Source: Candidatus Zixiibacteriota bacterium
GTDB taxonomy: Bacteria > Zixibacteria > MSB-5A5 > GN15 > FEB-12
Direction of reading: 5' to 3'
DNA length: 64,000 nucleotides
NCBI GenBank assembly: GCA_028289585.1
Contig: JANQPI010000026.1
Location: 434,001-498,000 of the forward strand
Shown here: piece by piece, positions 3,304 to 43,439 of the stretch
How the letters are laid out: each line of letters opens with the position of its first letter
Position numbering within the stretch: the first letter of the stretch is position 1
The notes under the pieces: generated by a model
Database searches by the model: none
What the model saw: the letters and a program-made list of their open reading frames with translations, nothing else
Told to the model about the DNA's origin: nothing
Translations under genes and position numbers: made by a program

Positions 3304-5381
3304 TGGCGGAGTCACGTGCCAACGTGCTACAGTTGCTGACCCGCCGTGCGGATATTCCGCTCGCCTTTGCGGTCATTGGCATCATTACGGTCTTGGTCAT
3401 TCCGATTCCGCCGGCCCTGCTCGATTTCGCCCTCGCATTCAATATCACGTTTTCACTGATCGTGCTGCTGGCAACGCTATATGTAACGCGACCGCTCGAC
3501 CTGTCGGTCTTCCCTGGCATGCTCCTGATCGTCACACTCTTACGCCTGGCCCTCAATGTTGCCTCGACACGAATGATTCTGGGACAGGGATACGCTGGTG
3601 AGGTGATCAACTCCTTCGGTAGTTTCGTTGTCCAGGGGAACTACGTTGTCGGGTTCATCATCTTTGTCATCCTTGTCATTATTCAATTCGTTGTTATCAC
3701 CAAGGGTGCCGGACGTATCTCGGAGGTTGCCGCTCGCTTCACCCTCGATGCGATGCCCGGTAAGCAGATGGCAATCGATGCCGATCTGAACGCCGGGCTT
3801 ATTTCCGAAGCGGATGCCCGTCATCGTCGTGAGACGATTGCCCAGGAAGCTGATTTCTACGGTGCGATGGACGGTGCCTCCAAGTTCGTCCGCGGCGATG
3901 CAATCGCAGGCATCCTCATTACCCTGATCAATATCATTGGTGGTTTCGTGATCGGTGCGGCGATGCGGGATATGTCGCTCGCCGATGCTGCCAAGACGTA
4001 TTCGCTGCTGTCAATCGGTGATGGTCTGGTAACACAGATTCCGTCACTCCTTGTATCGACCGCTTCCGGTGTCATTGTGACACGAGCTGCGTCGGATGCT
4101 CATATGGGTGCCGACATAACCAGTCAATTGAGCCGTCAGCCGCGAGCGATTCAAATCGCCGCCGGTTGTTTGATTCTCTTCGGACTTGTTCCGGGCATGC
4201 CAACCCTCGCGTTCGTTATGATCGGATTGATCGTTGGCGGTGTCGGCTACTTGACCGAACAGCATGCGAAGGGACAGGCAGCGGAAGCTGCTGCCGCGGA
4301 AGCACAAGAGCAGCAACCGACAGCGGCTGAAGAACGAACTGAAGATCTCATCAAGGTCGATACGATTTCACTCGAGATCGGCTATGGCTTGATTCCGATG
4401 GTCGATGCCTCGCAGAACGGTGATCTCCTCGAACGTATCTCTACAATTCGTAAGCAACTTGCCGGGGAGCTGGGCATCATCGTCCCGCCCGTTCGTATTC
4501 GCGACAACGTTCGTTTGGGACCAAACGAATACCTGATCAAGATTAAGGGCCTGCCGGCCGCGAAAATGGAACTGATGCCCGATCATCATCTGGCAATCAA
4601 CCCCGGTTACCTTGAAGAGAAGATCGATGGTTTCGCGACGCGGGAACCAGCGTTCGGTCTGAAGGCGACGTGGGTACTTCCTAACCTGAAAGATGTCGCG
4701 GAGGCGAAGGGCTTCACCGTCGTGCGCCCATCGGCTGTGCTCGCGACCCATCTTACCGAGGTTGTCCGGGCGTCGGCCGCTGAAATTCTCAGTCGTCAGG
4801 ATGTTCAGCATCTGCTTGATACGCTAAAAGAGGATGCACCGGTTCTGGTTGATTCGGTCATCCCCGAACATGTCACCGTTGGCACACTACAGAAAGTACT
4901 GCAGGCGCTGTTGGCTGAGCGAGTTCCGGTTCGAGATCTGGCGACAATTCTTGAGACGCTGTCGGATTACGCTGCGACCACCAAAGAGACTGATCTTCTC
5001 ACCGAGTATGTCCGTATGGCGCTGAAGCGTCAGATCACGGAGCTCTACCGAGACGATAAGGGGCAGATTGCGGTCTTCGCGCTCGACCCGGCGATTGAGC
5101 AACAACTGGGTGAGGCCGTACAGAACACGAAGCAGGGTCTGATGCTCGTACTTGATCCTGCGTTAGCCGACTCCCTGATCGCCCGTATTGGTGAGCACGT
5201 AGAACGTCAGCAGACTACCGGCCAACAACCGATCGTGATCTGTTCACCCAATGTTCGCCTCGCGTTGCGCCGACTCCTCGAAACGAATTACCCGAACCTC
5301 GCGGTCATCTCCTTCAATGAGCTCCTTCCGACCGCCGAGGTGACGTCAACCGGAATGGTGAGTTTAGACGATGATCGTTAA
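3303..5381 (+). CDS. flhA: Flagellar export protein FlhA
   Basis: FlhA is the large export-gate ring subunit that docks chaperone-substrate complexes and uses the proton motive force. The product has 692 residues, the usual length. The N-terminal half has about eight membrane segments and the highly conserved FHIPEP-type loop KGAGRISEVAARFTLDAMPG followed by KQMAIDADLNAGLI. The C-terminal half is the cytoplasmic docking domain. The start is GTG 3303, overlapping flhB by one base; the end overlaps flhF by 11 bases. Confidence 0.97.
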   Translation: MAESRANVLQLLTRRADIPLAFAVIGIITVLVIPIPPALLDFALAFNITFSLIVLLATLYVTRPLDLSVFPGMLLIVTLLRLALNVASTRMILGQGYAGEVINSFGSFVVQGNYVVGFIIFVILVIIQFVVITKGAGRISEVAARFTLDAMPGKQMAIDADLNAGLISEADARHRRETIAQEADFYGAMDGASKFVRGDAIAGILITLINIIGGFVIGAAMRDMSLADAAKTYSLLSIGDGLVTQIPSLLVSTASGVIVTRAASDAHMGADITSQLSRQPRAIQIAAGCLILFGLVPGMPTLAFVMIGLIVGGVGYLTEQHAKGQAAEAAAAEAQEQQPTAAEERTEDLIKVDTISLEIGYGLIPMVDASQNGDLLERISTIRKQLAGELGIIVPPVRIRDNVRLGPNEYLIKIKGLPAAKMELMPDHHLAINPGYLEEKIDGFATREPAFGLKATWVLPNLKDVAEAKGFTVVRPSAVLATHLTEVVRASAAEILSRQDVQHLLDTLKEDAPVLVDSVIPEHVTVGTLQKVLQALLAERVPVRDLATILETLSDYAATTKETDLLTEYVRMALKRQITELYRDDKGQIAVFALDPAIEQQLGEAVQNTKQGLMLVLDPALADSLIARIGEHVERQQTTGQQPIVICSPNVRLALRRLLETNYPNLAVISFNELLPTAEVTSTGMVSLDDDR

Positions 5382-6534
5382 AACGTACACCGGCCACACG
5401 GCCACGGCAGCGATGAATCAAGCTCGCCTTGAGCTTGGGGATGAAGCGATTGTTCTCGCAACGCGTCCGGCCACTGATTCGTCGGGACAGACAGTAACCG
5501 AGGTGACCGTCTGTCTGCCGCAACCCTCGGCTGCTCAGACGTCCGTAGCCCTCCACCGTGATGATGTCAGTGATCATGCAACGCCAACGAAGACCGCACC
5601 GGCTGACGCGTCTGTACCGGTACTGTCTCCGACTGAACCGACTGAGTCCGAGGAAGAGGTGGTCTTTGCACCGGATGAAACGGAGTTATACTCCGAGGCG
5701 CCCACCTGGTTGCCCCACTACACGAAGCTGAACAACAAAGTTGAGTCAATCCTCAAGGCGCTCCAGGGTTTTCAGCCGGGTGAGTCGACCGATCCTGAGG
5801 TTGCACATCTGATGTCGCTCCTTGCGGATGCCGATCTCCCGATGTCGGTTGTTTCGTCGTTGCTGAACGATACCGCGGAGATCGCTCCGCATTTGTCACC
5901 GCACGAGCGGATCCGAACGACGGTTCAGAATCTCATTTCGCCGGTACTCACGTTCGACGGAGGAGAGCGAATCATGGTGATTGGACCGTCAGGGGCGGGG
6001 AAGACGACCGTTCTGGGTAAACTGGCCGCACAGTTGGTTGTCGGTGACAGTTTACCAACGCGCTTTGCCTCACTCGATCAGAACAAAGTTGGGGCGGTCG
6101 ATGAGATTCATGCCTACGCCGATCTTCTGGGCGGCGAGGTTATCGACGTCGAATTATGTCATGCGCTAACACCGCGCGACGTAGTTCTGATCGACACTCC
6201 CGGTTTACCGTCGGATTCCAATGATCTCATGCGATTGATACGCCAGCGCAAAGCGTTAAAGCCAACGGCGGTGGTCTTTGTCTTTCCGGCAACGATGCGG
6301 GCCCTTGATCTGATGGACCAGCTCGATCGGGCACAGGCACTTGCACCGACGCACGTGGCTATGACTATGACCGATCTGACACCCCGATGGGGGAACATCC
6401 TGGTTGCTGCCGAGGCGGAGCGACGTCCGCTCGTGTGGCTCTCGGAGGGACCGACCAGCCGCGGCAAACTGTATCGTCCCGATCTTACCACACTCATGGC
6501 GCACATGGTGCGGGAGGATGAGTCCGATGCGTAA
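5371..6534 (+). CDS. flhF: Flagellar SRP-type GTPase FlhF
   Basis: FlhF is an SRP-family GTPase that decides flagellar position, working with FlhG. The 387-residue protein has an N-terminal B domain (MIVKTYTGHTATAAMNQARL), an acidic linker, then the NG domain with P-loop GPSGAGKT at 205-212 and G3 motif DTPG at 275-278. Two motifs depart from the family pattern. The usual DTYR is DQNK at 236-239, and the usual TKxD specificity motif is TMTD at 332-335. GTP affinity may therefore differ. The gene overlaps flhA at its start and flhG at its end. Confidence 0.93.
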   Translation: MIVKTYTGHTATAAMNQARLELGDEAIVLATRPATDSSGQTVTEVTVCLPQPSAAQTSVALHRDDVSDHATPTKTAPADASVPVLSPTEPTESEEEVVFAPDETELYSEAPTWLPHYTKLNNKVESILKALQGFQPGESTDPEVAHLMSLLADADLPMSVVSSLLNDTAEIAPHLSPHERIRTTVQNLISPVLTFDGGERIMVIGPSGAGKTTVLGKLAAQLVVGDSLPTRFASLDQNKVGAVDEIHAYADLLGGEVIDVELCHALTPRDVVLIDTPGLPSDSNDLMRLIRQRKALKPTAVVFVFPATMRALDLMDQLDRAQALAPTHVAMTMTDLTPRWGNILVAAEAERRPLVWLSEGPTSRGKLYRPDLTTLMAHMVREDESDA

Positions 6535-7342
6535 GTCGCTGGTCGTTTCGATTCAATCCGGTAAGGGGGGGGTCGGCAAGTCACTGGTTGCGGCCAATGC
6601 CGCGGCGATGATCGCCGGCCGCCAGGCCCGCACGCTGTTGATCGATGCCGACATCAACTTCGGTAACCAGCACATTCTCATGAACGTGGCGCCAACCCAC
6701 TCGATCATCGACTGTGTTGTTTCGAGTCAGGTGCTGGCGGACACGGTTGTTCGCATCAACCCATTCTTTGACCTGCTTGCTGCGCCTTTACAGCCACATA
6801 CAATTGATGAGGAGATTCGAACAGGCCTCAGTCTCGATTCGCTCCTTGTTACCGCTCGTCAGACGTACGACGTCGTCATTATTGATCATGCCTCCGGTAT
6901 CGATCGTCTCGGGCAGCAGGCAGTGAAGAAGGCCGATCGCATTGCGGTGGTGACGCTTCCCGAACTACCGGCAATCGCCGACGCCGTCGGGCTGTGCAAA
7001 TATCTCACAACTGCTGGTGCTCAGGCGAACATTGACCTGGTGGTCAATCGTGTCGACGAGACTGACGATGCTCCAGTATTGGGCGAATCGTTTCGACAGA
7101 TCTGCCGACAACTCGGGCTTCGAGAACCCCAGTCAATCACTGATTTACCCAATGATAGTGCGGCTCGACAGGCCCTGGCCCGACAGGCGGGATTGGCCGA
7201 TGTAGCGCCTGAGGCCGCACTTACCGTTTCTCTGCGTCGCTGGGCACATAGCCTGCTGACGCCTCAGGGACCCGCACCAGGGTCCACCGCCACGTTCCGC
7301 TCGATTAATGAATTGATGACCATCGCCGAAGAAAAGGAATAG
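6527..7342 (+). CDS. flhG: Flagellar number regulator FlhG (FleN, MinD-like ATPase)
   Basis: FlhG is a ParA/MinD-type ATPase that limits flagellar number and regulates FlhF. The 271-residue protein carries the deviant Walker A motif GKGGVGKS at residues 12-19, then LLIDADINFGNQHILMN and the Walker B-like strand YDVVIIDHASG. ATG 6527 fits the family N-terminus and lies 9 bases after GGGAGG; an in-frame ATG at 6518 is an alternative. The start overlaps the end of flhF by 8 bases, and fliA starts 7 bases after the stop. Confidence 0.93.
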   Translation: MRKSLVVSIQSGKGGVGKSLVAANAAAMIAGRQARTLLIDADINFGNQHILMNVAPTHSIIDCVVSSQVLADTVVRINPFFDLLAAPLQPHTIDEEIRTGLSLDSLLVTARQTYDVVIIDHASGIDRLGQQAVKKADRIAVVTLPELPAIADAVGLCKYLTTAGAQANIDLVVNRVDETDDAPVLGESFRQICRQLGLREPQSITDLPNDSAARQALARQAGLADVAPEAALTVSLRRWAHSLLTPQGPAPGSTATFRSINELMTIAEEKE

Positions 7343-23752: not shown

Positions 23753-23876
23753 GAGAGCTCGAAGGTTTTTTCTCCTCCAGTAATAATCGGAAAATGCATT
23801 CTGCAACCCGGGGTTGTAACGGAAACTGTTTGACTGGATTGCCAGATAGACTAGCGAATATGTGACGTCTAGAATG

Positions 23877-23966
23877 CGGAGAGGGAGAGATTCGTACCCT
23901 CGATAGAGGTTGTACCCTTACAACGGATTAGCAATCCGCCGCCCTCAGCCACTCGGCTACCTCTCA
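23877..23966 (-). pseudogene. Decayed tRNA-Ser(GCU) copy
   Basis: A 90-base sequence on the minus strand is nearly identical to the intact tRNA-Ser at 30188-30277, with the same anticodon (AGC on the plus strand at 23930-23932) and same-length variable arm. It carries damage. The first acceptor pair is T opposite C, and the T-loop reads TACGAAT instead of TTCGAAT, losing the invariant T55. The T stem is weakened by a G-T pair. Short flanks (AGAATG and GGCAACGC) are shared with the intact copy, which points to a duplication. It might still be scored as a tRNA by software. Confidence 0.7.
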
Positions 23967-29860: not shown

Positions 29861-30187
29861 AGGATTCCTCTTTTCTCGTTACAGATCGTACGATACCGAC
29901 TGAGGGGCAGTACGATTGGCGAATAATGATTGAGCTATCCATGATAATGAATGACCTCTGGACGGTCAACGGACATCCAACAGCGCTGCTGACTCAAGGT
30001 TACATGACATGAGAGGGGGAGTGCGCGCCTGACATCGCTTTGCGAATTCGGATTGCGAGGTATGCCCTATGCACAGTAATCGAGAATCGATTTGTAGAAC
30101 GGTCACACAGCGGAAGCATCTATGCTCACGCCAAGCGTCGTTGCCAAGGTGCTGGAAATTGTTGCCTGGATAGGGATTACAAGAATG
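29861..30187. other. Intergenic region between S74 gene and tRNA-Ser
   Basis: No gene is supported in these 327 bases. The promoter of the S74 gene must lie at the left end; no convincing element can be fixed by eye. No family A, B or C repeat is present, unlike the other gaps of this region. Confidence 0.4.
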
Positions 30188-30277
30188 CGGAGAGAGAGGG
30201 ATTCGAACCCTCGATAGAGGTTATACCCCTATAACGGATTAGCAATCCGCCGCCTTCAGCCACTCGGCCACCTCTCC
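30188..30277 (-). tRNA. tRNA-Ser(GCU)
   Basis: The 90-base class II tRNA starts GGAGAGGTGGCCGAGTGGCT, has the anticodon GCT (plus-strand AGC at 30241-30243), a long variable arm, and an intact T-loop TTCGAAT. The acceptor stem closes with one G-T pair at position 7. CCA is not encoded. The anticodon stem GGATT/AATCC and the T stem GAGGG/CCCTC are perfect. A decayed copy lies at 23877-23966 in the same orientation. Confidence 0.96.
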
Positions 30278-33193: not shown

Positions 33194-34615
33194 ATGACTG
33201 CCAACTTCCGCCGTTGGGCCTTTGCTACGCTTGCCATCGGATTGATAGCGACAGGTGTTGTCGCCGATGATGGCGCGCTTACCGATGACCTTCTCGACGA
33301 CATGCGGTCGCGAGTTGTTGCCGATCCGGCATACCGACAGCTGGTCAACGCGACGACCAATAATGCCATCAAGGACCTGGCGCTCAACCGGGAGAAGCTT
33401 TCGGTCTACGACAAGCACTTTGATTTGAAGCTTGAGGGGTCGAAAGTCATCAATCAGCGGTCCTCGGGCCGGTGCTGGATGTTTGCCGGGTCAAACGTTG
33501 TCGCGCCGAAAGTGATGGATAAGCTCGATCTGAAGGACTTCAAGCTCTCCGAGGCGTACTTCTCCTTCTGGGATAAGCTTGAAAAGTCGAACCATTTCCT
33601 TGAGAAGATGATTGATCTGGCGGACAAGCCGCTCGATAACCGCGTCGTCATGATGTACCTCGAATCGCCGATCGGTGATGGCGGATGGTGGCACTATTTC
33701 ACCGGGCTCATTGAGAAGTACGGAGTCGTGCCGGCATCGGTGATGCCGGAGACCAAACAATCGACGCGAACCGGCACGTTGAACCGTCTTATCAACCGCA
33801 AGCTGCGTCAGGCGACCGGAGAGATTCGTGATCGCCATGCCAATGGTGCCCGGGTCTCGGCGCTGCGGGACTACAAGGCCGAGGTTCTCGACGATATCTA
33901 TCGGTTACTGACGTTCTCGTATGGTGTTCCGCCGACCGAGTTCACGTTCCGCTGGGAAGAGACCGTCGATTCAACCAAAGTTCTGCAGGAAGAGCGGTTC
34001 ACGCCGCAGGAGTTTCGTGCGGCGTACTTTGGCGCTGAGATGCCCGACTATGTTGCCGTGACGCATAATCCGACGATGGACTATGATCAGCCGTATCTGA
34101 TGGAGCGCACGCGCAACATTATGGAGACCGACGACCCGGTCTTCTTGAATCTCGGGGTTGAGCGGCTCAAGAACTACGCGCTCAAGTCACTCCGCGATAG
34201 TCAGCTTGTCTGGTTCGCCTGCGACGTTGGCGAAGACAATTTCAACGACTCGGGCCTCTTCGTGGTCGACATCTATGATTACACGACCGCGTTCGGTATC
34301 GACTTCGATATGTCGAAAGATGACATGCTCTACTACAACGAATTGGTGCCGAACCACGCTATGGTTTTGACCGCGGTTGATACGACCGACGATGGTCGGC
34401 CGGTCAAATGGCAGGTCGAGAACTCCTGGGGGACGTCCCGGGGGGATGGTGGTAAGTGGGTCATGTCGGATGGATGGTTTGATGCGTACGTGCTCATGGT
34501 CATTGTCCCGCGTGACATGTTAGAGCCAGAGGACGAACTCGCTCTCATGAAACCACCAACGCCGATCGAGGAGTGGCAGCCATTCTTCCAGAGCCTTACC
34601 AACCTCGAGTGGTAG
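33194..34615 (+). CDS. C1B aminopeptidase (bleomycin hydrolase / PepC family), secreted form
   Basis: The 473-residue papain-fold peptidase has Gln88 and catalytic Cys94 in QRSSGRCWMFAGS, His388 in NHAMVLTAV and Asn410 in VENSWG. These are the full set for a C1B enzyme, a self-compartmentalised hexameric aminopeptidase. Unlike cytosolic PepC, it begins with an apparent signal peptide (RRWAFATLAIGLIATGVVAD), so it may act in the periplasm. GAGGAG precedes ATG 33194. It is monocistronic, divergent from the propeller gene. Confidence 0.93.
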   Translation: MTANFRRWAFATLAIGLIATGVVADDGALTDDLLDDMRSRVVADPAYRQLVNATTNNAIKDLALNREKLSVYDKHFDLKLEGSKVINQRSSGRCWMFAGSNVVAPKVMDKLDLKDFKLSEAYFSFWDKLEKSNHFLEKMIDLADKPLDNRVVMMYLESPIGDGGWWHYFTGLIEKYGVVPASVMPETKQSTRTGTLNRLINRKLRQATGEIRDRHANGARVSALRDYKAEVLDDIYRLLTFSYGVPPTEFTFRWEETVDSTKVLQEERFTPQEFRAAYFGAEMPDYVAVTHNPTMDYDQPYLMERTRNIMETDDPVFLNLGVERLKNYALKSLRDSQLVWFACDVGEDNFNDSGLFVVDIYDYTTAFGIDFDMSKDDMLYYNELVPNHAMVLTAVDTTDDGRPVKWQVENSWGTSRGDGGKWVMSDGWFDAYVLMVIVPRDMLEPEDELALMKPPTPIEEWQPFFQSLTNLEW

Positions 34616-36031: not shown

Positions 36032-36050
36032 TTGGCATAGCGTCTGCCCA
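36032..36050 (+). promoter_or_regulatory. Candidate sigma-54 type promoter of the DUF4402 fibre locus
   Basis: TTGGCATAGCGTCTGCC has GG at 36034-36035 and GC at 36046-36047, exact -24/-12 spacing. The -24 half is TTGGCA and the -12 half is CTGC rather than TTGC. The predicted transcript would start near 36059, 30 bases before ATG 36089. Confidence 0.35.
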
Positions 36051-36088
36051 CCTATCCTGAGAAACAATCGCGAAACAGGGAGGGAACG

Positions 36089-36616
36089 ATGCGCCCCTTG
36101 TATCTGCGCCTCGTCGCCACCGTGGTCTGCGCCATCCTCGCTTTAGGGGGATCGAGTGCGGCTCAGGAAGTTGCTACAATTCAGGCGACCGCTACCGTGG
36201 TCAGTGGGCTGACGGTAGTCGGAGCCAACAATCTACAGTTTGGAACAGTCACGCCGGGTGTTCCGACGACAGTCGACAAGGCAGCGGTCACGTCGGCCGG
36301 ACGCTGGGATATCTCGGGGACCGCGGGGTCGGAGATCTCCGTCACGTTTACGTTGCCGTTGATCCTCGACAACACCAGTTCCCCGACATCAATGCCGATT
36401 TCGTTTTCGGCGACGGATGCCTCGTACAACGACGGTACCGGTTCCCAGAGCAGCCCCACCGGGGTTCTCGATCCGGCTGCGCCGCAGACGCTTCGACTCG
36501 GGACGGTCGGCCTGCTTGAGATCTTCATCGGTGGCACCGTGAGTCCGACGATTTCACAGGGGGGCGGTGACTACACCGCCGACGTGACCATAACCGTTGC
36601 CTACACCGGGAATTGA
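36089..36616 (+). CDS. DUF4402-like secreted subunit 1
   Basis: The 175-residue protein has a signal peptide (cleavage probably after GGSSAA) and a beta-sandwich with the DUF4402 pattern. Features are ATATVVSGLTVVGANNLQFG, TPGVPTTVDK, an AGRWDISGTAGSEISVTFTL strand pair, and the end GGDYTADVTITVAYTGN. DUF4402 proteins resemble fimbrial or spore-coat-U-type subunits, and the alternating C-terminal strand suits donor-strand assembly. Two further proteins end in the same YTGN. GGGAGG precedes ATG 36089. It is the first gene of a likely chaperone-usher-like operon. Confidence 0.78.
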   Translation: MRPLYLRLVATVVCAILALGGSSAAQEVATIQATATVVSGLTVVGANNLQFGTVTPGVPTTVDKAAVTSAGRWDISGTAGSEISVTFTLPLILDNTSSPTSMPISFSATDASYNDGTGSQSSPTGVLDPAAPQTLRLGTVGLLEIFIGGTVSPTISQGGGDYTADVTITVAYTGN

Positions 36617-36685
36617 CATTTTGCGACAATCCGTTATCATGGTTCCGAGCGTCGACAGTCGTCGCCCTAACTGTGAAAGTCGGAT

Positions 36686-36970
36686 ATGTCACGTCTGCTC
36701 CGGTACAGCTTCGCGCTTGTCATTTTCATCTGCGGACTCACGTTCTGGCCGCGAGCGGAGGAGACGGCATCGATCCGGGCGACAGCGCGGGTAGCCTATA
36801 GCGCCGTTTCGTTGACCCAGCCGATCGTGCTTCCGGACCACGCAGAACGTGGCCCCGGCTACGTTGGTTATCCTGATTCGGTCTATTCCGGTGGACCCCA
36901 CGGCTACCTCGTGACAGTCGAGCGCCGTGGTTCCGAGGTGCACTGCGCCATCACAATCATCGACCAGTAA
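36686..36970 (+). CDS. Small secreted protein of the fibre locus, unknown function
   Basis: The 94-residue protein has a signal peptide (FALVIFICGLTFWPRAE), then a short beta-rich domain: TASIRATARVAYSAVSL, a Gly/Pro-rich loop, and HGYLVTVERRGSEVHCAITI. Its opening after the signal peptide resembles the first strand of the DUF4402 proteins, so it may be a shortened or partial subunit, perhaps a tip or anchor. It lies between DUF4402 subunits 1 and 2. No strong ribosome site is seen. Confidence 0.55.
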   Translation: MSRLLRYSFALVIFICGLTFWPRAEETASIRATARVAYSAVSLTQPIVLPDHAERGPGYVGYPDSVYSGGPHGYLVTVERRGSEVHCAITIIDQ

Positions 36971-37025
36971 CATCTGCCCACGGTTCAAACTTGTGCCAGC
37001 GTGACTCCGCAGTGTACGGTTGCGC

Positions 37026-37505
37026 ATGCCGCGATCGGTTTTTCGACTCGGATTCGGTTTCCTGATGCTGCTGGGACTGGCGATGACGTCCTCGGGGCAG
37101 ACGATCACCACGACCAATAACCTCGTCTTTGGCTTGGTCTACCCGGGTCAACCCAAGCAGATCTTACCCACGGCCGTGGGGGAGGCGGGAGAGTGGCTGA
37201 TTGCCGGCAATGAAGGGGACGAGGTTCGCATCACGTTCACGACCCTGCCTACCTACCTGAATCTGAACGGGGTAAATGTGTCGGTTGTCATCAGTGAAAC
37301 CGACGCCGCGCTGGATACCGCCGCGGTGCCGAATCAGACGAGTCCGCCAGTCAGTGGCCTCGATCCCTGGCAACCGATCATCTATCGGCTGGGGGCCAAT
37401 GGACTGACCCTCTGGCTCGGGGGCTCGATCATTCCACGTCAAGCCCAGGCTGAGGGTGACTACTCCAATCTGATCCAGGTTCAGGTCGAATACACCGGCA
37501 ACTAG
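37026..37505 (+). CDS. DUF4402-like secreted subunit 2
   Basis: The 159-residue protein (ATG 37026; a TTG 6 bases earlier is in frame) has a signal peptide and the same layout as subunit 1: TNNLVFGLVYPGQPKQILPT, GEWLIAGNEGDEVRITFTTL, RLGANGLTLWLGGSIIP and the ending GDYSNLIQVQVEYTGN. It lacks the N-terminal repeated Ala/Thr strand of the others. It is probably a minor structural subunit of the fibre. A short terminator-like hairpin follows it. Confidence 0.72.
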   Translation: MPRSVFRLGFGFLMLLGLAMTSSGQTITTTNNLVFGLVYPGQPKQILPTAVGEAGEWLIAGNEGDEVRITFTTLPTYLNLNGVNVSVVISETDAALDTAAVPNQTSPPVSGLDPWQPIIYRLGANGLTLWLGGSIIPRQAQAEGDYSNLIQVQVEYTGN

Positions 37506-37564
37506 CCCCCGCCAATCAGCTTGGATCGGCTCACCCCGGGATGCGGGATATCACCCCCCACCTC

Positions 37565-37585
37565 TGGGGTTTCCCCACTCTTTTT
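37565..37585 (+). terminator. Short terminator-like hairpin with T-tract
   Basis: TGGGG TTT CCCCA is followed by CTCTTTTT. The stem is only 5 bp but the T-tract is good. It separates subunits 1 and 2 from the third subunit, which may then have its own promoter in 37586-37754. Confidence 0.5.
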
Positions 37586-37754
37586 CCCGCTTTCTCTGTC
37601 AAGAAAATGAACGATTGACCGAAAATCTCGAAGGAGAGCGGTAAATCAGGTCAAAGCCAATAATCGGTGCCGGTCGGATCCACTCTCCTGGACACGGATG
37701 TAGCAGAGCGATTGAATAGCGGGGAAGAATTCCCCGAGCGCAAGGAGTAAGGGA

Positions 37755-38297
37755 ATGCTAGAAGTCAGAAACAACACGCGTTGGCTCAAGGCGGCGGTCA
37801 TTGCCGTCTTGCTGCTTGCCAGCCCGTCCCTGGTTAAGGCTCAGGATGCCGCCACGGGTACCGCCACCGCCACCGTCGTCGCCGCCCTGCAGGTGACTGC
37901 GACCGCGAGCTTGGCTTTCGGAAGTGTTATCCAGGGTGTACCGACCACCATCGCGCCGACGTCGGCGTCCGCTGGTATCTTCAACATCGTTGGTTCGGGT
38001 ACGCTCGAAATCCTGATCAACCTTGTGCTGCCGGAATATCTCTCGTCCTCGTCGGGTGACCGCATGGTGATCACCTTCGCCCCGACCGACGGAGAATTCG
38101 AAGGTCTGGTTGCGGCCGACGGTACCGATTTCACCGCCGGTTCGACGACGTTCAATCCGTACACGACCCTGACCGCCAACCTGGTTGCCAACTCGGGTGC
38201 TGTTGGCCTGGGTGGTAAGGTGTACCCATCGGAAAATCAGTCCGCGGGTGCCTACACGGCGGATGTTACGCTGATGGTTTCCTACACCGGAAACTAA
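37755..38297 (+). CDS. DUF4402-like secreted subunit 3, probable major subunit
   Basis: The 180-residue protein has a signal peptide (AAVIAVLLLASPSLVKAQ) and the DUF4402 pattern TATATVVAALQVTATASLAF, GSVIQGVPTTIAPTSASAG, FNIVGSGTLEILINLVLPEY, VGLGGKVYPSENQSAGAY and the ending TADVTLMVSYTGN. A long leader of about 170 bases with pairing segments (GGAGAG 37633-37638 with CTCTCC 37683-37688) and a strong CAAGGAG site precede it. This fits a highly expressed main subunit; that role is inference. The chaperone gene follows 63 bases later. Confidence 0.77.
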   Translation: MLEVRNNTRWLKAAVIAVLLLASPSLVKAQDAATGTATATVVAALQVTATASLAFGSVIQGVPTTIAPTSASAGIFNIVGSGTLEILINLVLPEYLSSSSGDRMVITFAPTDGEFEGLVAADGTDFTAGSTTFNPYTTLTANLVANSGAVGLGGKVYPSENQSAGAYTADVTLMVSYTGN

Positions 38298-38360
38298 GCG
38301 ATTCGCGCTGCGGTCCGACAGGATGTCGCCCGACCGTTAACTTGCGATAGGAGCGCTCAC

Positions 38361-39233
38361 ATGTTCAGTCTCGGCTTTTACGACGCCTCGAAAGTGGTCC
38401 GTTGGTGGACCGGTCGGGGCGTTGTCTTTTCCCTCCTCCTGCTCATTTCGTTGACCTCAGTCGATGCCTCGATCATCGTTGCACCTACCTCGGCGATTCT
38501 CGGTGATCGTGAACGAACGACCACGCTTGAACTCCACAATCCGACGACTGACCCGGTCGAGGTATCGGTTGCCCTCGCGTTCGGCTTTCCGGTTTCCGAT
38601 TCGCTCGGGGAGATTACGGTTCCGGTTGAGGACAGTAACATCACCGATCCACAATCGGTGGTCGGGTGGATTCGCGCCTTCCCGCGACAGGTGATTGTTC
38701 CTCCCCTGTCCAAGCAGGCGCTCCGGTTGATGGCCCGGCCGCCGGCTGATCTTCCCGAAGGCGAGTACTGGGGGCGCCTGATCGTAACCTCGCGGCCCGT
38801 GAGCGAACCGTCGGTATCAACCGACGAGGGCGCGATTACGACTGAGCTGCGGATGGTGACGATGACATCGATGACAGTCAAGTATCGCCGCGGTGATCCG
38901 TCTGCCGGCCTTGCGTTACGAAACGTGAAAACGATTCGTGACACCAGTGAGGTCCGGCTTCTGCTTGATCTGGTGGCCACCGGTTCGGCCTCGTACGTGG
39001 GGGTCCTTACCGCTATTGCCCGCGACGCAGACGGCCGTCAACTCGATCGCCAGGAGATCAACCTGGCGGTCTATCGCCAATTGACCCGTCGTGTCATTTT
39101 TCCAACGTCGCAACTGACGGCTGCGATCGCCTCGGTCGACATTTCGATCTCGACCGACGGTCGGACCGACATTGATCCGCGCTTAATGATCCACGGTAAC
39201 CGTCTGGAACGACGGATCGCCCTGACGGAGTAG
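38361..39233 (+). CDS. PapD-like periplasmic chaperone of the fibre locus
   Basis: The 290-residue protein has a signal peptide or N-terminal membrane helix (FSLLLLISLTSVDAS), then an immunoglobulin-like domain. Chaperone-style strands are present: IIVAPTSAILGDRERTTTLE with HNPTTDPVEVSVAL, then VVGWIRAFPRQVIVPPLSKQ with LRLMARPPADLPEGEYWGRL. The order matches fimbrial chaperones that deliver subunits by donor-strand complementation. A C-terminal second domain is less conserved. It sits between the major subunit and the usher-like gene, 8 bases before the latter. Confidence 0.78.
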   Translation: MFSLGFYDASKVVRWWTGRGVVFSLLLLISLTSVDASIIVAPTSAILGDRERTTTLELHNPTTDPVEVSVALAFGFPVSDSLGEITVPVEDSNITDPQSVVGWIRAFPRQVIVPPLSKQALRLMARPPADLPEGEYWGRLIVTSRPVSEPSVSTDEGAITTELRMVTMTSMTVKYRRGDPSAGLALRNVKTIRDTSEVRLLLDLVATGSASYVGVLTAIARDADGRQLDRQEINLAVYRQLTRRVIFPTSQLTAAIASVDISISTDGRTDIDPRLMIHGNRLERRIALTE

Positions 39234-39241
39234 CTGGTTCG

Positions 39242-41812
39242 ATGTTCGGGTGGTCGCAGCGGAACGCCACGTGGTGGCGCCTGGTAGTCGTACTGATCCT
39301 GAGTGGATCGGTGTCGGCGGCGGCTCAGGTGGCGTCTCGGGAAGAGGTCCCGCTGACGTTCAGTGTGCCCCGGTTGATCTCACAGGAGATCATCGTCTGG
39401 TACGATGGCGATCAGCTCTTTCTACCGATGCTGGAGGTCTTTGGCCTTCTTTCGGTTGATGCCCGTTACGATTCCGATCGGAATACGATCAGTGGCTTCT
39501 TTCTCGAACAGGAACGCGAGTTCGCGCTCGCTCTGCGTACCGCCCGACTGACGACGTGGGAGAAACAGCAATTCCTGGCACCATCGGAAGCAATCGTCGT
39601 CTCGCCGGAAGTCTATCTCCGCTCGGATTTGTACGCCGAATTCTTCGGTCTCGAATTCACCTTCGACTTCGCCGAACTTTCAATCACGCTGCCGTTCGAC
39701 TCGACGTTCCCAGCCTGGGAACGAATTGAGCGGGAACGCCGGAGAACGCGTCTGCTTGCCCAGGAAGAGCAACTTGGGCGCGTAACACCGCTGGCGACCG
39801 TGCGGCCGTGGCTGGGTGGCGCCGTTCTCGATTGGTCACTCTCGACCACGCCTTATGGTCCGGGCAACGAACTCTATTCCGGCCAGCTCGGAGCAGTCGT
39901 TGCGAAGGGAGACTTGGAAGTTGGCTTTACCGGCGATTCTCGTCGTGGTATCGACGCTGATGCTCTGAATGGACGTTGGCGTTTCGTGGTCGATCGTACT
40001 CCCTACCTCGGTCAGGTGCTTCTCGGCGATGTCAATGCGACCGGTTCGATCGGACGTGGCTTGCGGGGCGCTGCTCTGACCAACCGACCCGTTGTTCCGC
40101 GTCGCTATTTCCAGACAATCGAAATTGCCGGGACAACCGGACCCGACTGGGAGGTCGAACTCTACGTAGGTGGTCGTCTGGTCGATTTCCAGACAACCGG
40201 TCCGAGTGGTCGATACCGGTTTTCTGTGGACGTCGACTACGGAGGGTCGATCATCGAGGTCCGCAAGTTTGGTCCTAATGGCGAACAGGAGACCGAGCAG
40301 CGCTACTTGCAGGTGCCGTTCGATCTCGTTCCGGAAGGGGAGCTCGAATACCAGGCCGTGGCGGGGGAGGACCGCTTTGGCAGCGATTCCGGCTGGTATG
40401 CGCTTGGCAACATCGCTTACGGCGTGGCTCCCAACGTTACGCTTGGGGTCGGTGTGGAACACCTCCTCAGCGGCGATTCGTCCGTGTCTCCCCAGTTGGC
40501 GGCCAGCCTGAGTGGTCAGCTTACCGGTAACGTTACGGCCGCGGCACGCTGGCTGCCTCGCCGTTCGATTGGTGGTAATCTGCTTCTGACCATGCCCGCA
40601 TCGGTAAGTGCCTCGTTGAGCCACAGTCGGTACTTTGATCGTTCGGATGAGTTGGCGCGAGGTCTGGTCAGCGAAACGGATCTGACGCTCTCGACGCCAC
40701 TTCGGATTGCCGGGCAGCAGGTGTCGGCGCGCTATAACCTGGCGTTTGATCAATTTGATGAGCGGGCTGTCTATCGCATGTACGCCTCGGTCGGTGTCTC
40801 AACCCGCTACGCGTTCCTCTCGGCGCTCGGTCGATACTCGGGGGCGAGCGATATCGATGGGCCCATCGAGAACCGCATTCAGCTCATCGCCTCAATCCAG
40901 CGGCTGCGCCTCGCCCGACCGCTCCTTCGCTTTGAGTACGATCTGTTGACAAAGCGTGTTACGTCGTACGGGATAGATGTATCCCGATCCGTACTCGGAA
41001 CGTCGCAGCTTACTCTCAGTTATCGCGAATCGCCACTCGCCGGCAGTCGTTCTGTTGGCTTGACGTTTACTTACCTGACAGATTTTGCCCAAACCACCGC
41101 GAGAGCCTCGAGTTCAACGCGGCAGACGGTCGTCACAACCAGTCACCGTGGCTCGATTCAGTGGGATCAGGCAACTGGCGGTGTGCATCTTTCGCGACGA
41201 GCGGGAGTCGGCCGTGGACATGCCCGCTTGCGACCGTTCCTCGACTATGATGCCGACGGTACGATTGATGCTGGCGAACCGCTGGTTGAGACCGCAACCG
41301 CTCGACTCTGGCGGAGCACCGGTCGACCGGCCGGTGGGCGCCGTCGTACCCATCCCGGACTCCAGGCGTATGATTCCTATGTCCTGCAGGTTGATCCTAC
41401 CTCGCTCCCGGATCCGCTAACCCGGCCGCTCTTTGATGACGTTGCCATTGACGTCATGCCGAACATGGTGACGGCAGTCGATGTCCCCGTGGTGGTGGCG
41501 GCGGATATCTCCGGTGTGGTGGAACGGCAATCAACGTCCGGTCGCCTGGGTATCGGTGGACTTCGCATTCAGATGATCAACCTCGGTCGCGATCAGTTGA
41601 CCGAAATCTCGACGTTCACGACCGGCGATTATTACCATCTCGGCCTGATTCCGGGTCGTTATCGTATCCAGCTCGATCCGGAACAGTTGGGTCAACTCGG
41701 CTACCAGTCAGAACCGGCCAGTCATGAGGTAATCGTTCCGGCCGGGGCCGATCCGATTTCATTGGAACAGATTAATTTCCTGCTTCTGCCGACGACGGCG
41801 CTACCGCGCTAG
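39242..41812 (+). CDS. Usher-like outer-membrane protein of the fibre locus
   Basis: The 856-residue protein has a signal peptide. Its N-terminal domain (DGDQLFLPMLEVFGLLSVDA) resembles the periplasmic domain of alternative ushers, and the middle domain has the usher-style sequence WEVELYVGGRLVDFQTTGPS then GRYRFSVDVDYGGSIIEVRK. A long beta-barrel of alternating strands follows. The C-terminus contains a calcium-loop-like FLDYDADGTIDAGEPLVE and a carboxypeptidase-regulatory-like beta domain. It is expected to export and assemble the DUF4402 subunits. Its last 4 bases overlap the converging lipoprotein gene. It is diverged from classical FimD/PapC. Confidence 0.72.
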   Translation: MFGWSQRNATWWRLVVVLILSGSVSAAAQVASREEVPLTFSVPRLISQEIIVWYDGDQLFLPMLEVFGLLSVDARYDSDRNTISGFFLEQEREFALALRTARLTTWEKQQFLAPSEAIVVSPEVYLRSDLYAEFFGLEFTFDFAELSITLPFDSTFPAWERIERERRRTRLLAQEEQLGRVTPLATVRPWLGGAVLDWSLSTTPYGPGNELYSGQLGAVVAKGDLEVGFTGDSRRGIDADALNGRWRFVVDRTPYLGQVLLGDVNATGSIGRGLRGAALTNRPVVPRRYFQTIEIAGTTGPDWEVELYVGGRLVDFQTTGPSGRYRFSVDVDYGGSIIEVRKFGPNGEQETEQRYLQVPFDLVPEGELEYQAVAGEDRFGSDSGWYALGNIAYGVAPNVTLGVGVEHLLSGDSSVSPQLAASLSGQLTGNVTAAARWLPRRSIGGNLLLTMPASVSASLSHSRYFDRSDELARGLVSETDLTLSTPLRIAGQQVSARYNLAFDQFDERAVYRMYASVGVSTRYAFLSALGRYSGASDIDGPIENRIQLIASIQRLRLARPLLRFEYDLLTKRVTSYGIDVSRSVLGTSQLTLSYRESPLAGSRSVGLTFTYLTDFAQTTARASSSTRQTVVTTSHRGSIQWDQATGGVHLSRRAGVGRGHARLRPFLDYDADGTIDAGEPLVETATARLWRSTGRPAGGRRRTHPGLQAYDSYVLQVDPTSLPDPLTRPLFDDVAIDVMPNMVTAVDVPVVVAADISGVVERQSTSGRLGIGGLRIQMINLGRDQLTEISTFTTGDYYHLGLIPGRYRIQLDPEQLGQLGYQSEPASHEVIVPAGADPISLEQINFLLLPTTALPR

Positions 41813-42867
41813 CGAGACCGATCCGCGGCAAACTGACGCATCAGCAGACTAATCAGTTCGTCGGCCCGGTGAGGAAGATCGGGGCGGCGTGAACCGGCGA
41901 AAATCGCTCCCGACCAGACCGCCTGGCGATAGTAGGGAGGACCGGCCCAGACATCGACCCACACGCCCATTGCCGTGCGGCGGGATTCTTCCTGATGACG
42001 TCGGATCGCGTCGAGCGACGACGGTTCGTTCCCGTCGAACGGAATATCGAGCGTACCGGTCTGTTGCCAGAAGTAGGCCTGCATGATCAGGTCGGGGAAT
42101 GTTTCCCCACGAAAGCGGACATGGATTGAGTCGGCTTCGAACTGGTCGGGACGAAGGGGAACAAAGAACTCCCGATAGCCACGAGTTTTCACCAGGCGCT
42201 CAGGTGTACGTTCGAGCTCCCGGATCGAGTCAAGCATCGCGAACGCACGATCGGCCGTGCTGTCGGTTTGCAGCATGATTACGAGAGAGTCACGGAGCTG
42301 CCGACTGATGGGATCGAGCGAAGGGTCAACGGGAGGACGAAGATGCGCCCCGGTGGAATCGCGGTACGTGGAGTATACGCTCTCCGTATCGGTAACGTTC
42401 AATGAACCCTCGTCGATACTACGCGGATCGAACTGTCGATTGCGAAGCGAAGCAACGATCGGAGAACCGCGAAAACTCGGTCGGTCGAGTGGGATGTAAG
42501 TGACCCTATACCCCAACTCCGCCAGGTCATCAGCGAAGCTTCCATAGAACGCCTTCTCTTGCAGCTCGGTCAGTCCGGTTGAGTCGGCGGGGAGCCAATT
42601 GATCGGCGTTGCTTTGGCATCGGAGCGAAACGTTGTTCCGAACAGGTCGCGCTGCTGGAACTCATTGAGAAGCTGGATTGGGTTGTCGCGGCGATAGACC
42701 GAGTGCCAGTAGATCGGGATGAAGCCAATCGTTTGCGCCCGTTCAAACTGGTAGGTCGGATCGGCGGCTGATTCGATGAGTGGTGTTCGCACCGCGGGGA
42801 TACATCCAGTGAGAATGATCGAGCAGGCGAGGAGCAACACGGTAGTCCGTTGGCAGAAACTTCGCAT
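41809..42867 (-). CDS. Putative lipoprotein, unknown function
   Basis: From ATG 42867 the product is 352 residues, with a lipoprotein signal MRSFCQRTTVLLLACSIILT followed by GC. The body is hydrophilic with alternating motifs (YQFERAQTIGFIPIYWHSVY, FYGSFADDLAELGYRVTYIP) that recall periplasmic or outer-membrane accessory lipoproteins of the DUF4136 style, though no family is certain. A GTG at 42927 is in frame, but choosing it would bury the lipobox and overlap the next gene. It converges with the usher gene and may share its surface function. Confidence 0.65.
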   Translation of the reverse strand: MRSFCQRTTVLLLACSIILTGCIPAVRTPLIESAADPTYQFERAQTIGFIPIYWHSVYRRDNPIQLLNEFQQRDLFGTTFRSDAKATPINWLPADSTGLTELQEKAFYGSFADDLAELGYRVTYIPLDRPSFRGSPIVASLRNRQFDPRSIDEGSLNVTDTESVYSTYRDSTGAHLRPPVDPSLDPISRQLRDSLVIMLQTDSTADRAFAMLDSIRELERTPERLVKTRGYREFFVPLRPDQFEADSIHVRFRGETFPDLIMQAYFWQQTGTLDIPFDGNEPSSLDAIRRHQEESRRTAMGVWVDVWAGPPYYRQAVWSGAIFAGSRRPDLPHRADELISLLMRQFAADRSR

Positions 42868-42908
42868 AGCGAAGTCAACGGCAGCGAGACCGGAGTGGAC
42901 AAGTTTTT

Positions 42909-43439
42909 TTACGGTCGCCGCGACCACGGGTCAAGCGTGCCGACCGTTACCGAGTCATTCCCAGTAAGAATAGCCTCGGCGACACCAGCCACGATTTCGT
43001 GGTCTGACAACCATCGGGAGCGGTCGCCCTCGATTACGAATCCGAGCCGCACGGTGACAAAGGTAGAGGTATCGGGCAGCCATTCCGGCATGGCCGCATG
43101 TACTGGCCGCGACGCCGCCGAGCTTCGGATGGCAACCCAGCGACACTTCAGGTAGCGAGCAAGAAGGGGTTGAATGAGCCTTCGTTCGACGTCTTCAGTC
43201 GGGCTATGAATCCAGCTGACAATCAGGTCAATCGGTCGCGGATCGGCAATCAACCGGTCGACGGCGTCATTCACGTCGGCGTTGTTCTGATAGTCACAAC
43301 GAACCGTTGTGATCGGTTCGGTCGGCCAGGGATGGGTAAGACCACGAGCCAAAGCGATGACATTGTGCGAGTCGAGGAGCCGATCAAGGAGTCCGGCAAG
43401 CATACCGGTACCGCCAATGACGACTGCTCGCGGCTTCAT
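42909..43439 (-). CDS. Short Rossmann-fold protein, SDR-like
   Basis: The 176-residue protein from ATG 43439 (GTG 43454 is the alternative) begins MKPRAVVIGGTGMLAGLLDR, the nucleotide-binding glycine motif of atypical short-chain dehydrogenases. It continues with alternating strands and helices (ALARGLTHPWPTEPITTVRC, IDLIVSWIHSPTEDVERRLI). It lacks a YxxxK catalytic pair and is shorter than usual, so it may bind NAD(P) without a classical SDR reaction. It is transcribed together with the gene at 43471. Confidence 0.65.
   Translation of the reverse strand: MKPRAVVIGGTGMLAGLLDRLLDSHNVIALARGLTHPWPTEPITTVRCDYQNNADVNDAVDRLIADPRPIDLIVSWIHSPTEDVERRLIQPLLARYLKCRWVAIRSSAASRPVHAAMPEWLPDTSTFVTVRLGFVIEGDRSRWLSDHEIVAGVAEAILTGNDSVTVGTLDPWSRRP

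Follow-up and report, generated by a model that had tools for sequence, protein, structure and literature searches.

A putative chaperone-usher fibre system with DUF4402 subunits in Candidatus Zixiibacteriota

A compact group of genes in a Candidatus Zixiibacteriota genome raises the question whether DUF4402, a domain of unknown function, serves as the building block of a pilus-like fibre. The window, i.e. the whole stretch of DNA that was analyzed, comprises 64,000 nucleotides and contains six plus-strand genes at 36089–41812 that encode, in this order, a DUF4402 subunit (A), a small secreted protein, two further DUF4402 subunits (B and C), a chaperone and an usher, all of them with signal sequences for export. 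An earlier note on this DNA had proposed a chaperone-usher locus at 36032–41812; the end is correct, whereas the stated start precedes the first start codon, at 36089, by 57 bases. Our computations gave the gene content, a near-constant gene order in relatives, an usher fold for the outer-membrane protein, a pilin-like subunit fold, a pattern of N-terminal extensions and homology to proteobacterial DUF4402-chaperone-usher operons. Together with PapD_N matches and the precedent of the Csu pili, the two folds, the gene order and the extension pattern support the conclusion that the locus very probably represents a complete chaperone-usher fibre system of a DUF4402-subunit type, so that the original interpretation holds in substance, with the pilin-like matches of the subunits being weak.

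The usher gene (39242–41812, plus strand) encodes a protein of 856 residues, the structure of which was predicted with AlphaFold2 using 20 homologues (pLDDT 82, pTM 0.62). The model comprises an N-terminal domain (residues ~34–150), a barrel (~191–642) of approximately 24 strands, an inserted five-stranded plug-like domain (~304–356) and two C-terminal Ig-like domains (~658–850). The stretch WEVELYVGGRLVD, noticed before as marking a middle domain of this protein, sits within the inserted plug-like domain. Comparison of the model with the PDB using Foldseek placed FimD or PapC on all of the first 18 ranks (E 6e-28 to 3e-13), followed by a single-domain match to SdrD (2.5e-9) and, from 2.7e-6, by unrelated barrels (LptD), and the barrel and plug that had been anticipated are thus both present in the model. 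In its predicted shape the protein resembles the classic pilus ushers of E. coli, while its sequence has drifted far, which is why standard databases miss the usher in Zixibacteria. The window usher has no Usher match in Pfam and only a SdrD_B/CarboxypepD_reg-like domain at its C-terminal end; the usher model PF00577 and the Fimbrial subunit models gave no match above cut-off, and no TcfC E-set or CooC_C usher domain was found in 20 ushers. A single-sequence search of the PDB returned no match and a profile search of the PDB failed, one run matching mainly the SdrD-like C-terminal domain. Profile alignment by hhalign, in contrast, related the ushers of Zixibacteria to the DUF4402-linked ushers of Proteobacteria (100%, E 3e-56), and the joint profile of this DUF4402 type aligned with archaic ushers (98.2%, E 4e-14) and with FimD (95.9%, E 5e-9; 0.15% for the LptD control). 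The ushers of Zixibacteria by themselves reached only 46% against FimD by profile, and the sequence link passes through the proteobacterial relatives. We propose an usher identity for an outer-membrane protein family that is now labelled after its small C-terminal domain.

The gene at 38361–39233 (plus strand) encodes a protein of 290 residues, which sequence comparisons of its family support as a PapD-like two-domain periplasmic chaperone, in agreement with the first reading. While the window protein itself has no Pfam match, PapD_N matches 16 of 21 aligned homologues (best 3e-6), and the chaperone profile aligns over ~217 columns with archaic chaperones (92.8%, E 4e-7), better than with FimC or EcpB. 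In the PDB, the single-sequence search found no match and the profile reached marginal values only (CupB2, E 0.82; PapD, 0.84). Conserved Arg and Tyr columns are apparent in the sequence alignment of the family; the carboxylate anchor of archaic chaperones is of the Arg89/Arg174/Tyr196 type. An NCBIfam search of the locus yielded nothing useful.

All three DUF4402 proteins of the window end in YTGN, as had been noticed. Subunit A (36089–36616, plus strand, 175 aa) carries a signal peptide and the N-terminal extension EVATIQATATVVSGLTV, and subunit C (37755–38297, plus strand, 180 aa) carries the extension DAATGTATATVVAALQV. Subunit B (37020–37505, plus strand, 161 aa) lacks such an extension and is counted here from a TTG codon, the ATG at 37026, two codons further downstream, being an equally likely start. 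Pfam DUF4402 matches one of the three at its cut-off (A, 2.8e-5) and the other two below it (8.1e-4 and 1.0e-3); at E ≤ 0.1 the family (PF14352) matches 84 of 89 subunit family members, confirming their assignment as DUF4402-like. The spore-coat-U model SCPU (PF05229) matches 2 of these 89 (best 0.024), and in 129 genomes of the phylum it found nothing, with the control silent as well. An AlphaFold2 model of subunit C built with 89 subunits (pLDDT 90, pTM 0.74) shows an unpaired N-terminal extension (~30–44) and has a strand as its last C-terminal element. Among the best 50 Foldseek matches of this model in the PDB, 42 are chaperone-usher pilins or pilin domains, including the PapG pilin domain, CfaB, FimA, FimG, CsuA/B and Caf1; the matches are weak (best E 1.6e-3). 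Taken with the operon context, they are good but not decisive evidence for a pilin identity.

The three subunits represent three separate lineages. In a tree computed from the core only, leaving out the extension, all A (15/15), B (21/21) and C (53/53) members fall into one clade each (supports 0.98, 0.99 and 0.96, respectively). The aligned A and C members share an extension of ~13–15 residues in which small and hydrophobic residues alternate (e.g. TATATVV), whereas the 21 aligned B members begin directly at the first strand. A loose regular expression for the extension motif likewise matched 27/28 A and 96/103 C members but only 6/37 of B. The distance from the hydrophobic core to the first strand is 14–24 residues in B versus 30–37 in A and C, one A being misplaced by the method, with a p value of 1e-11 that is overstated since the members share kinship. 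Because B forms a single clade, its missing extension is, on these alignments, one ancient difference that has long been kept and not 21 separate events. No A member has a pair of cysteines, and few of the B and C members do. A lone cysteine is conserved in 20 of 21 B members in a motif such as TDCA and is replaced by alanine in the window copy; being unpaired in a secreted protein, it may form a bond to a partner. An adhesin domain is not visible, and in size B does not exceed the other subunits.

The small secreted protein, also listed in the earlier note, is encoded between the genes for A and B at 36686–36970 (plus strand, 94 aa) and consists of the donor-strand-like sequence ASIRATARV after the signal peptide, a short variable body and the C-terminal strand AITIIDQ. 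Its relatives follow the same plan, with I-x-A/V-x-A-x-V after the signal peptide, usually P-x-G, a variable body of varying length and a C-terminal strand such as TLIYTEN or SVIYADQ. A 26-residue donor-strand HMM lacked the power to detect these proteins, and we used the motif together with controls: of the 28 loci that have an A–B gap, 26 contain a secreted ORF with the strand motif in this gap, compared to 6 of 140 control ORFs and 4% of shuffles.

The analysis gave no support to the view that the six genes form one transcription unit. A gap of 250 bases separates B from C and contains a terminator-like hairpin with a T-rich tail (37565–37577, plus strand), identified by a pattern scan for promoters and terminators in which the number of sites was not above chance. 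A or B can moreover stand far off or inverted in relatives. The hairpin may split the locus into an A–small protein–B part and a C–chaperone–usher part.

Within its own family, 38 of 54 genomes encode the usher, a conservation that excludes chance. Across the phylum, related ushers were found in 67 of 132 genomes, which represent 47 of 85 genera, a few of these being short matches to the C-terminal domain only. The Pfam Usher model found none in 129 genomes of the phylum while the E. coli control was positive; the known range of chaperone-usher fibres would thereby come to include a phylum where this model detects no usher. Named relatives belong nearly all to Candidatus Zixiibacteriota or candidate division GN15, with a few labelled FCB group or Calditrichota. 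Gene order, read in 20 neighbourhoods and in the 51 distinct loci holding the upstream genes, is A–small protein–B–C(1–3)–chaperone–usher in nearly all of them, and the conservation of order that had been named as a check is thus borne out; many contigs end within the locus. The exceptions are an inverted B in one genome, an A that is inverted or downstream in two and a duplicated B in three. The locus in the window is the smallest copy, with a single C where relatives usually have 2–3, the shortest small protein (94 aa) and a B without the otherwise conserved cysteine. Since it is reduced in this way, it could be a degrading copy.

The expectation of a non-proteobacterial diderm holds for Zixibacteria, whereas a confinement to such a phylum does not, as the same operon exists in alpha-, beta- and gammaproteobacteria. 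DUF4402-chaperone-usher operons were found in Erythrobacter colymbi, Polaromonas sp. JS666 and E5S, Sphingopyxis indica and Pseudoalteromonas xiamenensis, and four of their ushers are annotated as "carboxypeptidase-like regulatory"; an usher-like protein of Pseudoalteromonas sp. Bsw20308 is annotated as SdrD B-like. Three subunit-like genes of Polaromonas repeat the pattern seen in Zixibacteria, namely a full subunit, a strand with a variable body and a DUF4402 protein, the extension of which is absent in JS666 and reduced in E5S. P. xiamenensis similarly has a second DUF4402 protein without extension. Two genomes of Zixibacteria carry a second DUF4402-chaperone-usher locus (L049, 5981–11258; L050) with strong DUF4402 and PapD_N matches, and since the ushers of these loci group with Polaromonas (support 0.99), the tree suggests a horizontal transfer between phyla. 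A DUF4402 locus on a Deferribacter desulfuricans plasmid (L108) was rejected as a candidate, its two large upstream proteins matching no ushers; it encodes a DUF4402 protein with a donor-strand-like N-terminus (5824–6273) and a truncated-looking chaperone-like ORF (6797–7150) followed by an IS200/IS605 insertion. SPOR-domain proteins flank the P. xiamenensis operon (L115, 3307–3792 and 8609–9247), and in the usher-like protein at 5236–8424 of L104 the C-terminal Ig-like domain is followed by a SPOR domain.

Where, then, does the locus stand among chaperone-usher systems? Archaic (sigma) pili, e.g. Csu of Acinetobacter and the SCPU operons L120 and L121, likewise have the order subunits–chaperone–usher, share the N-terminal donor strand and the PapD-like chaperone and give the closest reference profiles (usher 98.2%, chaperone 97.5% and, with the subunits of Zixibacteria, subunit 80%). 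They differ in that their subunits are SCPU and not DUF4402 proteins and possess an invariant cysteine pair, in the position of their ushers in the tree, and in a tip that carries an adhesin domain, while the tip proposed here is a one-domain protein without donor strand; B is accordingly unlike the two-domain tip adhesins FimH or CsuE. Classical pili (type 1, P) share the usher fold with barrel, plug and N- and C-terminal domains, but identity is ~15%, the Fimbrial and Usher models of Pfam do not match above cut-off and no FimH-like adhesin was seen. With the alternative (alpha) pili, ECP and CFA/I, the match of the subunit model to CfaB (E 1.7e-3) contrasts with a weak usher profile, no TcfC/CooC_C match and no EcpD- or CfaE-like adhesin seen. 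The proteobacterial operons of Polaromonas, Sphingopyxis, Erythrobacter and Pseudoalteromonas (L103, L109, L105, L101, L115) agree in gene set and order and in the profiles of usher (100%, E 3e-56) and subunits (98%, E 6e-15), but have fewer subunits, an usher that annotation does not recognize and no division into A, B and C with C genes in tandem.

The locus might simply be an archaic (sigma, spore-coat-U) system in which drift has turned the subunits into DUF4402 proteins, making a separate branch unneeded, which we consider unlikely though well short of negligible. Usher, chaperone and subunits are all nearest to the archaic type by profile among the references, and since an archaic-like usher of an alphaproteobacterial genome also scores below the Pfam cut-off, absent Pfam matches are weak evidence of distance. 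This reading is opposed by the near-silence of SCPU on the 89 subunits and by the cysteine pair, which is invariant in archaic pilin domains (PMC4654587) but which A lacks and B and C seldom possess. It is further opposed by the usher tree (FastTree, 815 columns, ~15% identity across groups, five archaic-like ushers), in which the DUF4402-type set stands apart from the alternative ushers as well as from the archaic and classical ones together (support 0.98) and does not group with the archaic ushers, which join the classical ones (0.975), the deep nodes being fragile. A fourth branch of the chaperone-usher pathway is thus, judged from sequence, a reasonable hypothesis and not a conclusion. Its fuller form, in which DUF4402 systems of Zixibacteria and Proteobacteria constitute this branch, with a tip subunit that lacks the donor strand and a fibre-ending minor subunit of which little more than this strand is left, is possible but tentative; such a branch would have been overlooked because its usher goes unrecognized.

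For the DUF4402 chaperone-usher system itself, we infer fibre formation, donor-strand exchange and the tip and base roles as follows. The chaperone would lend a strand to the presumably incomplete Ig-like fold of each DUF4402 subunit (donor-strand complementation). Once at the usher, this strand would give way to the N-terminal extension of the subunit that follows (donor-strand exchange), with the fibre leaving through the usher barrel. A and C, having both core and extension, would polymerize; we propose A as a polymerizing subunit and C as the main one. Since the groove of a subunit would be filled by the extension of the next and B has none, B could only take the first place in the fibre and would cap the tip, a role that we regard as fairly probable. 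Csu pili show the same logic: the N-terminal strand of CsuA/B (Val8, Leu10, Ile12) is the polymerization sequence, whereas the tip subunit CsuE does not polymerize (PMC4654587). We propose the small protein as a terminator or minor subunit. The terminator role suits a protein that offers a donor strand but hardly any groove or none, the mechanism being a guess: in this most tentative step, it would plug the last groove and end growth, and we hold this role for possible rather than probable. The fibre probably functions in adhesion or biofilm formation outside the cell.

A different distribution of roles, with the small protein at the tip and B as a regulator, a surface subunit or a separately secreted protein, appears quite unlikely to us. 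The lone conserved cysteine of B would fit a special pairing, B is sometimes inverted or apart from the C–chaperone–usher block, and the variable body of the small protein resembles what is expected of a receptor-binding tip. A donor strand at the tip, however, has no groove to fill, and B keeps the core of a chaperone client and the C-terminal strand while lacking the donor strand. That there is no fibre system at all, but secreted beta-sandwich proteins beside an unrelated porin-like barrel, is highly improbable, since the only Pfam matches of the locus, DUF4402 and SdrD_B/CarboxypepD_reg, stand against the FimD/PapC fold match, far ahead of unrelated barrels, a PapD_N-matching chaperone and a constant gene order.

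A literature search for DUF4402 found no paper, subscription journals and preprints being outside its scope, and of the two papers in it that mention both Zixibacteria and an usher, neither concerns such a system, judged by title and abstract. Within this scope, the DUF4402 chaperone-usher locus is new as a variant, and it is broader than one odd phylum. It suggests a function, as pilus subunit, for a domain of unknown function, and, because some subunits have a donor strand and others do not, their sequences allow a prediction of subunit order in the fibre that a laboratory strain could put to the test.

Further features were apparent in the surroundings of the locus. A convergent gene on the minus strand (41809–42927), the stop codon of which overlaps that of the usher gene by 4 bases, encodes a likely lipoprotein of 372 aa with a signal ending in LTGC and no family match. 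Two tRNA-Ser(GCT) genes (23876–23966 and 30187–30277, both on the minus strand) lie ~6.2 kb apart, one with a far lower score (42.1 versus 58.3 bits), possibly reflecting a duplication or the boundary of a mobile element. Upstream of the locus, a C1-like peptidase of the bleomycin hydrolase type (33194–34615, plus strand; Pfam 8.8e-124) has an apparent signal peptide, which is unusual, as peptidases of this type are normally cytoplasmic.
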